DNA of 64,000 nt from NCBI RefSeq assembly GCF_005869845.1, contig NZ_VAWF01000003.1:186001-250000 (forward strand), written 5' to 3'. The notes under the pieces were generated by a model. The model was not told where the DNA came from and did not search any database. It was given only the letters and a program-made list of their open reading frames with translations. Each line of letters opens with the position of its first letter. The stretch's first letter is position 1. Origin of the DNA: Fodinibius saliphilus. Lineage in GTDB: Bacteria; Bacteroidota; Rhodothermia; Balneolales; Balneolaceae. This document shows, piece by piece, positions 20,373-27,109 of this stretch. The position numbers and the translations under genes were made by a program.

Positions 20373-22784
20373 TTACGATAAAGCCCGTGCCGTCTTCAAA
20401 ATATCTGCTAAAACACCGGCAGCTGTTACCTCTTTGCCAGCACCAGGACCTTGGATAACTAGCGGAGTTTGGTTGTAAAGATTAGAGAAAATCTGGATTA
20501 GGTTGTCCGTTCCCTTTAGCTGCCCGATAGGAGAGTCCTTTGGGAGTTCTTCAATACCGATCTGTACTTTGCCATCCTTAAAGCGCCCGGTATAACGCAA
20601 AGTGTTGCCTTTATTTAGTGCTGCTTCAATATGTTTTTCCCAGTGTTGATCATAGTTGCTGAGCCTGTTAAGGAAAGTATCCTTCTCCACATCCTTTAAA
20701 GCGTCTGGAATTAAAGAATCCACAGCTATTTCTTCACGTTCAATTTTAAACCCGAGGGTACGAGCCAGCGTTAAAAACTTACGAGCTACATCTTCACCGG
20801 ATAAATCATCACGCGGGTCCGGTTCAGCATAGCCTTTCTCTCTGGCATCAACAATTGCCTTGCTGAAAGGAATTCCTTGTTCGAGTTGGTTAAACAGGTA
20901 GGTCATCGTCCCTGACACCACACCCGATATTTCGGTAATATTATCACCGGCCGACTGTAGTTCATTGAGTGTTGATATTACCGGCAGTCCGGCCCCGGCA
21001 GTTGTTTCATACCGGAAAGAGGTATTATTTTCTTTAATTAACTTTTGTAGATCATCAAAGAAAGCCTGTTCAAAGGTATTGGCAAGTTTGCTGGGGGTAA
21101 CAATATGGGTGCCGTTTTCGAATAGCTTTGGATACAGTCGTGCTACCTCTTCACTTCCAGTAGCATCAACAAAAATGAGGTTGTTGCGGTGCGGTTCGGT
21201 AAGTTTATCAACTAGCGTATCCCAGTTGGTAGGCTGGCACGCAGACCAGTCAATATTTTTCTTAAGCGCAATGCCGCTCTCGTTCCACAGGGCTTGTCGG
21301 CTGTTACAGGCTCCGATAAGTCGAAAGGTGATTCCTTCCGGTTCCAGCCTTTTCAGCTGCTCCAGCAACGTATGGCCTACAGCACCAGTTCCGGCTACAA
21401 AAAGGTCGATCACTTTTTGATCTCCCTGCAAATAATCATTTAACAGACGTGCTGCCAGTTGGGCATCTTGTTTATCAAACAAGAAAGAAATGAAGCGTTC
21501 ATCGTGGTTTCGTTCAGTGCTAATGGGTTGCAGGTTATTTGAGGCTAACAGATCCCAAATACGTTTACAAAGTGATTCATCATCAGAGAAGTGATTGCTG
21601 AATTTTTTAACTTTATAGAGGTTGCTTTGCAGATCTAGCACCACATTATTGTTAGATGCCCATTGTCCGAGAAGGTTCGAAACTTTTTCGAAAAATGATT
21701 GCCGTAGTATAAAACGTGCCGGCTCAAACTCTGAGCTCGTTCTAAACCCAACCGCTTCCGAGTCAGTCTCTTGTTCGGACCAATCAGTAAGTTTGGAGAA
21801 CAGTTCAAATGCATATGTTTCGTCAATTTGTAGCTTTACAAAAGGCCCGGTAACGGTAATGGTTTTAAGGGCTCCATTAGATTCAAAGCCCGATGTTATA
21901 GAAGTGCCGGGGTGAGATGGGTTATAGCTGTTTTTGACAAGCACAGTAGTGTCCTTATTCTGAATGGGCCGTATGGTCTGGGGATGGATCACTTTCGCCC
22001 CATGAGCCGAAAGCTCTGTTATATCCCCAAAGTTGAGTTCTTTAATTGATTGAGCGGTGGGTACCCATCGGGGATCGGCTGAAAGCACTCCGTTTACATC
22101 GGTCCATATTTCAAGATGGTCGGCATTAAGAGCATCAGCAACAAGGCCGGCGGTATAATCAGACCCCGAACGACCAAGCGTTGTGATGCGATTTTTTGAG
22201 TCAGAGCCAATAAAGCCGGTGACAACAGGTACAAATTTCGATTGTTGCAGGTAGTCTCGGATCAGTGCACGACTTGTATCCTGCTTTACCTTAGCTTTTC
22301 CGAAAGTGGAATCAGTTTTGATAAATTGATGGGCTTCAAATGATTTTGCAGGTAATCCGTTACTGGATAGAACGGAAGCAAAAATTAACGCTGAAGCTCT
22401 TTCACCTATGGAAAGAATGCGATCTTTGAGTGCTCGCTTATTTTCAATATCGAGGCTGAGCTTATGCAGGTTTTGAATTAGTTCATCAAACAACTTGTCC
22501 AGATTTCTACGTTTTTTAGGTAGTTCTTTGGTGAGCTTATCAAAAAAGTCCAAATGTTTTTGACGCAAATTATCAACATTGGACTCAATAGAATCGGTCT
22601 TTTGGCCGATATTAGTGGTATGTGCAATGAGTGCATCGGTAACGCCTTCAAGGGCAGACACTACCACAAAAGGACGCGCCCGTTGTGTACGGTCAATAAC
22701 AATTTCGGCAGATTGTTTAATATAATCCGGATTCTGTAGTGAAGTACCACCGAATTTAAGAACATGTGTTTCAGAAGTATTCAT
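20373..22784 (-). CDS. thrA: Bifunctional aspartate kinase / homoserine dehydrogenase
   Basis: Fusion enzyme for steps 1 and 3 of the aspartate pathway, 803 residues. The N-terminal kinase domain starts with KFGGTS at residues 10-15 and has the TLGRSGSDYTAGLVA and EIWTDVNGVLSADPR segments. A central regulatory (ACT-type) region follows. The C-terminal NAD(P)-dependent dehydrogenase begins near residue 460 (DLFVAGTGAVGHTLLEQL) and has PSKLAN and GVVSGTMTYLFN. It lies 3 bases after metX, so homoserine made here feeds methionine synthesis under the operon's sulfur-sensing leader. Threonine also depends on this step unless another copy exists. Confidence 0.95.
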   Translation of the reverse strand: MNTSETHVLKFGGTSLQNPDYIKQSAEIVIDRTQRARPFVVVSALEGVTDALIAHTTNIGQKTDSIESNVDNLRQKHLDFFDKLTKELPKKRRNLDKLFDELIQNLHKLSLDIENKRALKDRILSIGERASALIFASVLSSNGLPAKSFEAHQFIKTDSTFGKAKVKQDTSRALIRDYLQQSKFVPVVTGFIGSDSKNRITTLGRSGSDYTAGLVADALNADHLEIWTDVNGVLSADPRWVPTAQSIKELNFGDITELSAHGAKVIHPQTIRPIQNKDTTVLVKNSYNPSHPGTSITSGFESNGALKTITVTGPFVKLQIDETYAFELFSKLTDWSEQETDSEAVGFRTSSEFEPARFILRQSFFEKVSNLLGQWASNNNVVLDLQSNLYKVKKFSNHFSDDESLCKRIWDLLASNNLQPISTERNHDERFISFLFDKQDAQLAARLLNDYLQGDQKVIDLFVAGTGAVGHTLLEQLKRLEPEGITFRLIGACNSRQALWNESGIALKKNIDWSACQPTNWDTLVDKLTEPHRNNLIFVDATGSEEVARLYPKLFENGTHIVTPSKLANTFEQAFFDDLQKLIKENNTSFRYETTAGAGLPVISTLNELQSAGDNITEISGVVSGTMTYLFNQLEQGIPFSKAIVDAREKGYAEPDPRDDLSGEDVARKFLTLARTLGFKIEREEIAVDSLIPDALKDVEKDTFLNRLSNYDQHWEKHIEAALNKGNTLRYTGRFKDGKVQIGIEELPKDSPIGQLKGTDNLIQIFSNLYNQTPLVIQGPGAGKEVTAAGVLADILKTARALS

Positions 22785-22787
22785 TGG

Positions 22788-23837
22788 TTAATAGTGTGCA
22801 ATTCTTGTTGGCGTTTCTACTAAAAAAGGTTTGATAATGTTGTTGAGCTGGTCGAATTCAATTAAGAAGGCGTCATGCCCGTGCTTCGACCGTATTCTTC
22901 GATATCGTCCTTTGGGCAATAATTGTGCAAGTTCATGCTGTTCTCGAACTGGGTATAGCATGTCTGAGTTGATACCTACTACCAATACAGGGATTTCAAT
23001 GTTGCCAAGTACTTTTACGTATGATGAGCGATTACGAGCAACATCGTGACTGTCCATAGCCTGGGTAAGGCGGACATAGGAAACGGCATCAAAACGTTCT
23101 ACCAGCTTTTCTCCCTGGTAATCGAGGTACGACTCTACTTCAAATTCTTTGGAATCTGCCTCTTGTAAACGTGCAAATTTATGTTCGTAATCGGTATCAC
23201 TGCGGTAGCTTATCATAGCAATCATCCGAGCGAGAGCCAGTCCCTTTTTGGGAGGTTGCTCTTCAGAATAATAACCATTATCCCAGTTGGGATCGTTAAA
23301 AATAGCCTGTCGCTGAGTATGGCTGATGCCAATGGCCCAGGGGCGGTGGGCTTTGCCCATTCCAATAAGTACCGCTGATTGTGGACGCTCATCCATAATT
23401 AGCCATTCCAGTACCTGCATGCCCCCCATAGATCCTCCGATAAGCAGTTCAATACTTGTAATGCCAAGGGCATCAAGCAGTTGTCGCTGCAGGCGTACCA
23501 TATCACGAATTGTGATTCTTGGAAAGTTGGCTCTGTAAGGCGTGCCGGTTTCAGGGTTCATACTGGTTGGGCCGGTGGTACCGAAGCAGCTGCCCAGTAC
23601 ATTGGGGCAGATGATAAACTGATGCGCAGGATCCAGTGTTTTGCCGGGACCAAAAAGTCCACTAAACCATTCTTCGGCATCGGCATTACCGGTTAATGCA
23701 TGGCACACAACCACCACATTATCACCTGCTTTGTTAAGGTTACCCCAACTTTTATAGGCAATGGAGGGTTGGGGTATAGGCTCCCCTTTTTCAGTTATGA
23801 AAGGATCTTCAAATGTTATTGTGTTTTTCGTACTCAT
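22788..23837 (-). CDS. metX: Homoserine O-acetyltransferase MetX
   Basis: Alpha/beta hydrolase-fold acyltransferase that activates homoserine as the O-acetyl ester. The nucleophile elbow is GGSMGGMQ, and the family hallmarks HALTGNADAEEWF and NVLGSCFGTTGPTSMNP are present. The catalytic Asp (in INSDMLYP) and His (SKHGHDAFLIE) are near the C terminus. Length (349) is normal. A succinyl donor cannot be excluded by eye, but pairing with an O-acetylhomoserine sulfhydrylase supports acetyl. It is the middle gene of metY-metX-thrA. Confidence 0.95.
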   Translation of the reverse strand: MSTKNTITFEDPFITEKGEPIPQPSIAYKSWGNLNKAGDNVVVVCHALTGNADAEEWFSGLFGPGKTLDPAHQFIICPNVLGSCFGTTGPTSMNPETGTPYRANFPRITIRDMVRLQRQLLDALGITSIELLIGGSMGGMQVLEWLIMDERPQSAVLIGMGKAHRPWAIGISHTQRQAIFNDPNWDNGYYSEEQPPKKGLALARMIAMISYRSDTDYEHKFARLQEADSKEFEVESYLDYQGEKLVERFDAVSYVRLTQAMDSHDVARNRSSYVKVLGNIEIPVLVVGINSDMLYPVREQHELAQLLPKGRYRRIRSKHGHDAFLIEFDQLNNIIKPFLVETPTRIAHY

Positions 23838-23926: not shown

Positions 23927-25364
<1,438 letters not shown>

Positions 25365-25399: not shown

Positions 25400-25519
25400 C
25401 TCTCATCTTTCCCCGGACCAGCCGGAGCAGGAAGTAGCACCTATCCCCTGTGTATCAAATACACAGGGCGGTTGCCAAAGCGTCATCGGGCCTGATCCCT
25501 CAGCTTTTCTTGATAAGAG
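25400..25519 (-). promoter_or_regulatory. SAM-I (S-box) riboswitch aptamer
   Basis: The minus-strand transcript shows the S-box core in order: CTCTTATCAAGA (P1 5' side), GAGGGA, GGCCCGATGA, GGCAACC, a variable P3 hairpin (CCTGTGTA/TACACAGG), GGTGCTAC, TTCCTGC and GAAAGATGAGAG (P1 3' side). It binds S-adenosylmethionine and is expected to favour the downstream terminator when SAM is plentiful, shutting off metY-metX-thrA. Confidence 0.95.
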
Positions 25520-25555
25520 TGCTCAGTATGTAAAAAGAACTAATGCACAGATATT

Positions 25556-25590
25556 CAAAAAAAGCCCTTCGGGGTCGTCCGAAGGGCTTT
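25556..25590 (-). terminator. Leader-peptide attenuator terminator upstream of the SAM-I riboswitch
   Basis: Perfect 12-bp stem (25579-25590 with 25561-25572, AAAGCCCTTCGG/CCGAAGGGCTTT), followed on the minus strand by seven T. It lies 28 bases after the stop of the Cys/Met-rich leader peptide. Its 5' arm (CCTTCGG) is also fully complementary to CCGAAGG at the end of the leader peptide reading frame (25624-25630), so an alternative antiterminator hairpin can form. Confidence 0.85.
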
Positions 25591-25618
25591 GAATCTGTTT
25601 ACATAGGTATGAAACAAA

Positions 25619-25696
25619 TCACTCCTTCGGTTGCAGGCATGGCATAAGCATACACATGCAACAGAGGCAAATAATATGTTGTGATATCTGTTTCAT
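25619..25696 (-). CDS. Cys/Met-rich leader peptide (25 residues)
   Basis: ATG to TGA, 25 codons, with the core CLCCMCMLMPC: five Cys and three internal Met within eleven residues (codons 10-20). It sits 24 bases after a predicted promoter and just before an intrinsic terminator, ahead of the metY-metX-thrA operon. This is the layout of a ribosome-mediated transcription attenuator. Stalling on Cys or Met codons would leave CCGAAGG (codons 23-25) free to pair with the terminator's 5' arm; reading to the stop codon would cover it. The ribosome binding site is weak, which is common in this phylum group. I know no named family. The regulatory role is inferred. Confidence 0.75.
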   Translation of the reverse strand: MKQISQHIICLCCMCMLMPCLQPKE

Positions 25697-25721
25697 TATT
25701 ACTTCAGTTTTAATTTCGTTT

Positions 25722-25753
25722 CTAAGATATGCGATTTTTTTTTATTACACAAA
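25722..25753 (-). promoter_or_regulatory. Predicted promoter of the methionine operon
   Basis: On the minus strand TTTG (25750-25753) and TATCTTAG (25722-25729) are 20 bases apart. This matches the Bacteroidota-type -33 TTTG / -7 TAnnTTTG consensus with one mismatch. It lies about 26 bases upstream of the leader peptide. Confidence 0.5.
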
Positions 25754-25764
25754 CAATACCTTTT

Positions 25765-25801
25765 GAAATGAAAAGGAAAATATGCTTTTTCTTTTCATTT
25801 C
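25765..25801. repeat. Inverted repeat upstream of the methionine operon promoter
   Basis: Perfect 11-bp arms GAAATGAAAAG/CTTTTCATTTC (25765-25775 with 25791-25801). It may be a factor-independent terminator on either strand or an operator. It lies between the histidine kinase gene end and the met promoter, in a gap that shows no other feature. Confidence 0.4.
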
Positions 25802-25999: not shown

Positions 26000-27109
26000 T
26001 CAGGCATCTTTTTTAAAATTCATTTCAAAATGGGTTCCATTTTCTGAATACAGGCGGTATTCAGCATCTATCTGTTGAGTTAAAGTTTCAATAAGTTTTA
26101 ATCCCAGGGAGTCATTTTCTTGGATATCCATATTGTCGGGAATGCCTTTCCCATTATCCGTGACCTTGAGGAATAAATGGTCGTCTTCTTCATAACAGCG
26201 AATTGAGACGGTTCCCCCATTGTCTTCAAAAGCATGTTTGTGTGCATTTGAAACTAATTCGTTTATGATAAGCCCCAGCGGTACGGCCTTTCTCATATTT
26301 AAAGAGATCGGTTCGATCTCCAGGTCAAAACCTATTTTTCCCGGGCCGGAACTGTTGATAGTCTCCATAGAATTTTGGAGATGTTCGATAAGATCTTCAA
26401 TATAGACATTCAGCGCAATGCTGGCTAAACCTTCGGTTTTGTAAAGTTTTTCATGAATAGACGCAATCGATTGCACCCGATTCATGCTCTCAGAGAGTAC
26501 CTCTTGAACATCCTCTGAGTTGCTCTTGATGATCTGTAGTTCCAACATCCCGGTAATAGTAGCAAGATTGTTTTTAATACGATGGTGGGTCTCTTTGATA
26601 AGCATTTCACGCTCATCAATAATCTCTTTTAACTTTTGTTGCTGTTCCCACTCTTTTGTAACATCTCTCTGAACAGAGACAAAGTGAGTAATCTCTCCCT
26701 CATCATCCCGGATAGGGTCGATACTCCAGCGGACTCTGTACGTTGATCCATCTTTTTTATAGTTAAAGGTTTCTCCTTCAAAATGCTCACCATTACTAAC
26801 CTTTTCTACAAGATCTTTGATTGTTTCTTGGTTGGTTTTGGGACCTTGCAATATCGTGGGAGATTTTCCCAGGATTTCTTCTTTAGAATACTGTGTAACT
26901 TTCTCAAAAGCACTATTAACGAACACAATTTTTTCTTCACCTATTGTTTCAGGCGCATCGGTAACCACCACCATCTCTTTGGTTGTTTCAATAGCTTTTA
27001 TAAGTGTTTTGGCTATTCTTTGGTCTACAGATTGGGAAACGTCTTTAGTTAATTGCTTTTCTCGGAATTCTTCGAAAACATCTTTAGCCATGGTAATGAT
27101 AACCTTCAT
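26000..27109 (-). CDS. PAS (LOV-like) sensor histidine kinase, HisKA_2 type
   Basis: Soluble 369-residue kinase. A PAS domain covers residues 40-150 and closely resembles LOV domains (GKSPTILQGPKT, NYKKDG, THFVSVQRDVT), but the photoactive Cys position is Pro, so a flavin-cysteinyl adduct is not expected. The phosphoacceptor box is ETHHRIKNNLATI (His175/176), typical of the HisKA_2/HWE group. The ATPase domain has NELVSNAHKHAF (N box) and VTDNGKGIPD (G1). The start is supported by GGAGAAA 9 bases upstream. No response regulator is adjacent, so its partner is encoded elsewhere. Confidence 0.88.
   Translation of the reverse strand: MKVIITMAKDVFEEFREKQLTKDVSQSVDQRIAKTLIKAIETTKEMVVVTDAPETIGEEKIVFVNSAFEKVTQYSKEEILGKSPTILQGPKTNQETIKDLVEKVSNGEHFEGETFNYKKDGSTYRVRWSIDPIRDDEGEITHFVSVQRDVTKEWEQQQKLKEIIDEREMLIKETHHRIKNNLATITGMLELQIIKSNSEDVQEVLSESMNRVQSIASIHEKLYKTEGLASIALNVYIEDLIEHLQNSMETINSSGPGKIGFDLEIEPISLNMRKAVPLGLIINELVSNAHKHAFEDNGGTVSIRCYEEDDHLFLKVTDNGKGIPDNMDIQENDSLGLKLIETLTQQIDAEYRLYSENGTHFEMNFKKDA

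Follow-up and report, generated by a model that had tools for sequence, protein, structure and literature searches.

A predicted Cys/Met leader-peptide attenuator arranged in series with a SAM-I riboswitch upstream of metY in Balneolales

Ribosome-mediated attenuators, best known from the leaders of the trp, his, thr and ilv operons, and riboswitches are usually treated as alternatives. A short frame, mgtL, is carried by the leader of Salmonella mgtA, and in this leader, as in that of Mycobacterium tuberculosis metE, the frame is interwoven with the riboswitch. The uORFC-8-2 of Rhodobacterales is a Cys-codon attenuator upstream of cysS, with a conserved uORF containing tandem Cys codons, a terminator with a U run and proposed stalling on the Cys codons (PMC8632094). 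Leader peptides with Cys runs have been described for cys operons in Mycobacterium and other bacteria, the Cys codons lying near the stop of a short frame before sulfur genes (PMC1262725). The methionine-gene leader of Bacillus clausii metE contains SAM-I and AdoCbl riboswitches in tandem, which are two independent terminator switches in series (PMC2258182), and that of M. tuberculosis metE combines a B12 riboswitch with uORF translation (PMC11260477). Hints of leader peptides also exist for Flavobacterium psychrophilum (PMC9723704).

No leader-peptide attenuator located before a SAM riboswitch was described among the matches listed in our search of the open-access literature, which mostly leaves out subscription papers. 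The remark in a preliminary description of this DNA that no such combination was known in this phylum group is thus unchallenged, and since the search was mostly confined to open-access texts and to the matches listed, this is weak evidence of novelty.

The window analyzed here is a stretch of 64,000 nucleotides from Fodinibius saliphilus, whose relatives are the Fodinibius/Aliifodinibius of the order Balneolales (Balneolota in the NCBI scheme). The preliminary description placed in it a second attenuator, in tandem with a SAM-I riboswitch before metY-metX-thrA. On the minus strand, the order is promoter candidate, uORF, terminator, boxA-like motif, SAM-I aptamer, SAM-I terminator and metY-metX-thrA. 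The features are as follows.

25722..25753, minus strand: candidate promoter of the Bacteroidota type, predicted from sequence (TTTG at 25753-25750, a 20-nt spacer, TATCTTAG at 25729-25722)
25619..25696, minus strand: leader peptide ORF MKQISQHIICLCCMCMLMPCLQPKE, a conserved frame of 25 codons with an ATG start and the stop TGA at 25621-25619
25686..25696, minus strand: segment A, the start-codon region, predicted to pair with C in the untranslated leader
25657..25662, minus strand: 5' side of the early hairpin, GTTGCA, which 8 of the 12 genus members retain
25630..25635, minus strand: 3' side of the early hairpin, TGCAAC
25624..25630, minus strand: segment B, CCGAAGG, at the ORF end, the 5' side of the putative antiterminator
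25609..25619, minus strand: segment C, ATTTGTTTCAT, directly 3' of the stop codon, partner of A
25561..25590, minus strand: attenuator terminator, with D = AAAGCCCTTCGG at 25590-25579, E = CCGAAGGGCTTT at 25572-25561 and a U tract to about 25557
25534..25540, minus strand: GTTCTTT, a boxA-like motif lying after the attenuator and before the SAM-I aptamer
25400..25519, minus strand: SAM-I riboswitch aptamer, RF00162 (86.4 bits, gathering cut-off 44.4)
25306..25364, minus strand: intrinsic terminator belonging to the SAM-I riboswitch, with a T run behind it (-29.4 kcal/mol, z = -6.0)
23927..25255, minus strand: metY, O-acetylhomoserine aminocarboxypropyltransferase (TIGR01326, 686.5 bits, cut-off 495.1)
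22788..23837, minus strand: metX, homoserine O-acetyltransferase (NF001209, 401.6 bits, cut-off 331; TIGR01392, 426.5 bits, under its cut-off of 500)
20373..22784, minus strand: thrA-like fused aspartate kinase/homoserine dehydrogenase (NF006959, 677.6 bits, under the cut-off of 726)
26000-27109: PAS/HisKA_2 histidine kinase gene on the other flank of the leader region, opposite metY

With an aptamer above the gathering score and a terminator of its own as the expression platform, the SAM-I element has what is required of such a riboswitch, and it is the only SAM-I match in this genome. The complete leader extends beyond 25556-25753, as the boxA-like motif and SAM-I lie below 25556; both A and C lie inside this interval. 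The stretch 25700-25556 folds at -48.3 kcal/mol (z = -6.95), which none of 200 shuffles equaled. Other RNA families were considered for the upstream part and rejected. There was no T-box match at the gathering score in the window and none among the 16 matches that Rfam gave for 25520-25800 at E values no higher than 5; the His_leader and Phe_leader families of Rfam scored 19.2 and 23.5 bits against cut-offs of 49 and 55, and the SAM-Chlorobi RNA 14.1 bits against 35.

An attenuator of the trp type is expected to have a short ORF with a run of regulatory codons, an intrinsic terminator between this ORF and the genes, an antiterminator competing for the 5' arm of the terminator, and a ribosome position that masks or frees the antiterminator. 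The predicted leader shares these with the trp, his, thr and ilv leaders: antiterminator and terminator compete for one strand, and a ribosome at the stop codon would mask the antiterminator. Unlike these systems, it would read two sulfur amino acids together, occurs in the FCB group, and has a second, ligand-sensing terminator behind the first. From uORFC-8-2 it differs in the gene controlled and the bacterial group, and the available part of that report describes two Cys codons only and mentions no riboswitch (PMC8632094); the mycobacterial cys leaders belong to Actinobacteria and lack a conserved terminator hairpin, again with no riboswitch mentioned in the part available (PMC1262725). In B. 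clausii metE both inputs are metabolite aptamers as far as described (PMC2258182), whereas the first input here would be a translating ribosome. As in M. tuberculosis metE and Salmonella mgtA, a riboswitch and a short frame share one leader; unlike in these, the frame forms a separate upstream module with its own terminator. In our assessment, ribosome-mediated transcription attenuation by Cys/Met codons, upstream of and in series with SAM-I, is the highly probable function of this leader, on computational evidence only. It rests on the conservation of frame, terminator and pairings, on two cases of covariation (B with D across genera, A with C within the genus) and on the geometry of the leader.

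The 25-codon Cys/Met frame proposed in the preliminary description is present, and its run TGYATGTGYATG occurs once in the whole genome, at this leader. Under a rule demanding an ATG and, within the last 18 residues, at least two Cys and at least four Cys plus Met, such a frame was found in 85 of the 90 Balneolales metY loci with a detected terminator, the frames being chosen blind to pairing; the identical uORF search succeeded in 50 of 1800 dinucleotide shuffles. After the start codon, 18.4% of the leader residues are Cys and 14.0% are Met. Eight genus members with frames of equal length give a pN/pS of 0.24 for codons 10-21 and of 0.41 for codons 2-25; base pairing of the RNA in this region may account for part of these low values. 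The short ORF with a run of regulatory codons is thus in place by sequence, its translation being inferred. A frame with a Cys/Met-rich stretch near its end and a pN/pS below 1 could also belong to a peptide that arrests the ribosome from within the tunnel, sensing SAM, cysteine or a metal instead of uncharged tRNA at the codons. Between genera, however, the leader sequence outside the Cys/Met run, its length and the exact Cys/Met positions all vary, as would be expected if it is the codons that matter, and two loci (L189 and L195) have Met-rich, Cys-free versions without SAM-I, so that we regard nascent-peptide arrest as improbable.

As the preliminary description had it, the frame is followed by an intrinsic terminator, formed by the stem 25590-25561 and a T run; the stretch 25606-25556 alone has a fold z of -5.8, and the terminator lies between the leader ORF and the genes as in a trp-type attenuator. 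The complementarity claimed between its 5' arm and the last codons of the peptide is also found, CCTTCGG lying at 25585-25579 and CCGAAGG at 25630-25624 on the minus strand. When the best partner of D was sought over the whole leader, it lay at most 12 nt from the stop codon in 83 of 85 leaders, with 17.9 expected if partners were uniformly placed. Between genera, B and D covary: in a swap test, 25 of the 29 genera scored higher with their own pairs than with foreign ones (P = 8e-8, Wilcoxon test). Examples, some including wobble pairs, are CCGAAGG/CCTTCGG in the genus of the window, GGGTTCG/CGAACCC in G085 and G087, ACCGGGGGAT/GTCCCTCGGT in G021 and GGAGAGCCT/AGGCTCTCT in G101. The swap test took the place of a single covariance model because B, D and E vary between genera in sequence, register and distance from the stop. 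By window shuffles, B:D was no better than P = 0.05 in 21 of 92 leaders, from at least nine genera (G188 and the duplicate G412x were left out). The P values of this set are flattered because B was selected at a score of at least 14, and the swap test was therefore repeated on leaders chosen without regard to B. With B anchored at the stop codon and covarying with D between genera, an antiterminator competing for the 5' arm of the terminator is indicated.

Covariation had been proposed beforehand as a check on the antiterminator and terminator pairings, and the outcome depends on the scale. Between genera B:D covaries; within the genus, where 97.6% of B:D cells and 95.1% of D:E cells are paired, double changes occur in neither. 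The genus alignment contains a further pairing that was absent from the preliminary description, an 11-pair helix between the start-codon region (A) and the stretch after the stop codon (C), with 91.6% of cells paired in 12 genomes. Compensatory double changes occur at two of its pairs, A-U to U-A in two genomes and G-C to A-U in three. None of 500 shuffles attained the joint covariation score of A:C and D:E, and 2 of 500 attained their count of double-change cells; the number of pairs with a double change (two) was not exceptional, being matched by 140 of 500.

The early hairpin suggested as a competitor takes the form GTTG(C/T)A:T(A/G)CAAC in the eight genus members that keep it, and the other four of the 12 have an alternative, GGATGTG with CACATCC (G001, G006 and G011) or with TACATCC (G008). 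The minimum-energy fold of the window leader contains most of A:C as well as the early hairpin and the terminator, and in it a CCU upstream of the hairpin pairs with the AGG of B, so that the predicted hairpin competes with the antiterminator, in line with the original suggestion. An untranslated fold with B free and only a weak early hairpin was rejected, as all 12 genus members have one form or the other of the hairpin, which occupies part of B.

We modeled the states of the leader by folding and by geometry. In the RNA ahead of a ribosome halted on a Cys codon, the probability of B:D has a median of 0.98, with values above 0.5 in 83 of the 85 leaders. Of 333 Cys codons, 308 lie at a sufficient distance upstream of B. 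With the ribosome at the stop codon, 95% of B would be masked on average. This masking is partly built in, because B was sought only near the stop in that analysis, which is why the search for B was repeated over the whole leader, as given above. Taken together, the stalled folds and the masking at the stop imply that full translation should favor D:E and termination, and stalling B:D and read-through; the masking and freeing of the antiterminator is thus supported on geometry and folding only. Without a ribosome and before E is made, the probability of B:D varies between leaders, with a median of 0.40 and values above 0.5 in 40 of the 85; for the window leader it is 0.96. Despite this value, the complete window leader, if untranslated, folds with B held and the terminator formed.

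Translation of the leader, stalling, termination, the response to starvation and the gate logic are inferred. When Cys and Met are ample, the ribosome would reach the stop codon and cover B, D:E would form, and transcription would end before the riboswitch. When Cys or Met is decoded slowly, the ribosome would halt on the Cys/Met run and leave B free to pair with D, and no terminator would form. In untranslated genus leaders, B may be held by the early hairpin and the A:C helix. A polymerase that has passed the first terminator would then meet the SAM-I switch, which would stop transcription at high SAM. From the two terminators in series we infer an AND gate, metY-metX-thrA being made only if Cys or Met tRNA is short and SAM is low.

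To assess the distribution of the module, RF00162 was searched in 116 relatives and found in 107; 130 of the 134 places were fetched, the four left out being second copies in the class outgroups G108, G112, G113 and G115. Added later were 40 chosen places (10 from the family, 30 from the class), then 29 new loci and 20 chosen places, in most cases one or two from each family (L271, from G172, repeats L222), and finally 30 loci, of which G412 and G302 repeat earlier ones. A joint criterion, which required a Cys/Met frame, a terminator and a stop-proximal segment complementary to it, was applied to 249 loci. Before metY-linked SAM-I in Balneolales, the full set was present at 88 of 103 loci (genus, 12/12; family, 45/50; family loci fetched later, 8/9; other families of the order, 23/32), and before metH-linked SAM-I at none of 22. 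Loss of the frame and the Cys/Met run in close relatives had been set beforehand as a refuting observation, and the conservation in all genus loci and in most of the order speaks for the tandem arrangement on computational grounds. The counts are not independent, since the loci share ancestry. A terminator upstream of SAM-I was found at 1 of 21 metH loci, so that these serve as controls for the whole module and not for each of its parts.

The 15 Balneolales metY loci without the full set are the five that belong to genus g5, the locus of G133, and nine from other families; among these nine, G098 has a terminator and B together with a frame containing a single Cys. Two further family loci, G025 and G061, where our test did not recognize the downstream gene, lack the full set. 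In three more of the nine, all of genus g24, Cys-rich frames were seen upstream of SAM-I at L105, L109 and L023 (G074, G079 and G091), with no detected terminator in G074 and G091 and a weak stem only in G079; these are possibly Rho-type or unrecognized variants. Elsewhere in the class, 1 of 34 metY loci passed (G188), probably by chance because its stem is short and its B unrelated, and in a phylum sample 1 of 31 (G412). The promoter candidate was judged against the Bacteroidota consensus. A looser form of it, TTG-N18..23-TANN[TA]T with its end 8-35 nt ahead of the uORF ATG, was found in 12 of 12 genus leaders, 12 of 73 others and 120 of 1700 plain shuffles, and these figures support the promoter for the genus only.

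A conserved frame directly followed by a terminator could also encode a small functional Cys-rich protein, binding for instance metals or thiols, with the hairpin as the terminator of its gene and the riboswitch unit starting anew downstream. Promoter-like stretches seen by eye near the aptamer in genus g5 and in the class outgroups G105 and G109 would suit such an arrangement; none was seen by eye between terminator and aptamer in the window, the only place to which that inspection applies. A plain terminator would need neither the stop-locked partner of D (83/85) nor the covariation of B with D, and all passing leaders precede metY, counting G555, so that we give this explanation little credence. 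Still less credible is a uORF that acts only on translation or on Rho access through coupling or polarity, B:D and D:E having no switching role: it can draw on the mycobacterial cys leader peptides without conserved terminators, for which a Rho mechanism is proposed (PMC1262725), and on the frames of G074 and G091 without a detected terminator, and is opposed by the finding that 88 of 103 metY loci have an intrinsic terminator together with a stop-proximal segment that is complementary to it and covaries. Attenuation by Cys/Met codons remains the preferred reading, and we regard the Cys/Met leader with SAM-I as a real case of a known attenuator type in an unusual architecture, an interpretation that is well supported computationally. 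Such leaders place an attenuator and a riboswitch in series on one RNA, an arrangement kept over many genera, and the metH riboswitch of the same genomes, without an attenuator, is a natural internal control; together these make the layered RNA control logic of sulfur-amino-acid synthesis directly testable.

The module also occurs outside Balneolales. In the Ignavibacteria loci L160 and L172, a frame MKNKNLNIEIKNMAMCL(S/C)CMM... is followed by a terminator, SAM-I and metY. The class of G412 is taken to be Ignavibacteria because its leader (MAMCMCCMC) resembles these frames. In this class, 3 of 10 metY loci pass the joint criterion (one being G412 again), as does G555, in which metY lies about 1.4 kb behind SAM-I. 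Under a looser rule, a Met/Cys-rich ATG frame was present within 700 nt upstream of metY at 6 of 25 loci of the class; G541 and G412 have a SAM-I core, and G258, G279, G322 and G328 have none. An RF00162 search gave no match in G258, G279 and G322 and in G328 a single match, on another contig. At L344 (G258), two Met/Cys frames stand in a row before metY, both accompanied by a terminator and by a stop region complementary to it; L347 (G279) is probably doubled likewise, the script having picked an unrelated stem for its second frame. L353 has a wholly different terminator, ACGCCATTCCT, to which its stop region, GGAGTGGTGTT, is still complementary. The Met-rich, Cys-free frames of L189 (Stygiobacter electus, Ignavibacteria) and L195 (Melioribacteraceae) lie upstream of metY and are accompanied by a terminator, and pattern matching found no SAM-I core at either locus. 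Since the attenuator module is found without SAM-I, the two are separable. Cys and Met are thereby indicated as amino acids read by leader peptides in both Balneolales and Ignavibacteria. By eye, L189 and L195 have a complete classical set of pairing segments: ATCGCCC, GGGCGA(A/T), AAGCCCTTC and GAAGGGCTT. At L192, a metY locus labeled Cytophagales, a SAM-I-like stretch was seen by eye, followed by a frame ending in MSICCGMCMRCC close to metY.

Between the attenuator and the aptamer, a boxA-like motif recurs. GTTCTTT, GTTCATT or GCTCTTT starts 6-32 nt upstream of the aptamer at 134 of 176 metY-linked loci examined (two repeat rows and G172x were left out), and at 1 of 176 in each of two control windows further upstream; the corresponding counts are 5 of 32 for metH-linked and 12 of 38 for other loci. 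The motif is also present without a leader peptide, in genus g5 and family f28, and occurs at only 5 of 34 metY loci of other class members. We presume it to be boxA from its likeness to the boxA consensus. In the rRNA operon of the same genome (L131), the 16S-23S spacer contains the boxA-like sequences TGTTCTTTTTT, TGTTCTTTGTT and TGTTCTTTGAC, and the 16S leader sequence TGTTCATTTACATACTGAG resembles AGTTCTTTTTACATACTGAG of the window. The expectation that a genuine boxA should recur in the genome's own rRNA operon is thus satisfied at the level of sequence, with NusB/S10 binding and any effect on elongation hypothetical. Genome-wide, GTTCTTTDA is not enriched (280 occurrences against 260 for the reversed pattern). 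As a guess, boxA might shield the untranslated stretch from Rho.

A three-part gate can be envisaged on this basis, running from the codon attenuator through an rRNA-type boxA to SAM-I, with the attenuator module traded in evolution and occurring alone, doubled or before SAM-I. NusB/S10 loaded at boxA on polymerases that have passed the first terminator would ready them for the untranslated riboswitch stretch. We advance this proposal tentatively, as somewhat less probable than its opposite. If it is true, a biosynthetic riboswitch operon of much of the Bacteroidota, broadly defined, incorporates antitermination of the rRNA type; the presence of boxA beside SAM-I in any case raises the new question of Nus factors in riboswitch operons.

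The interval between SAM-I and metY varies. In the window metY comes directly after SAM-I, with no small-protein gene between; in several relatives (L025, L031 and L032, for example) a gene for a small protein (MKSTFNNWYDKKMRAT...) reminiscent of CoA-binding proteins lies there.
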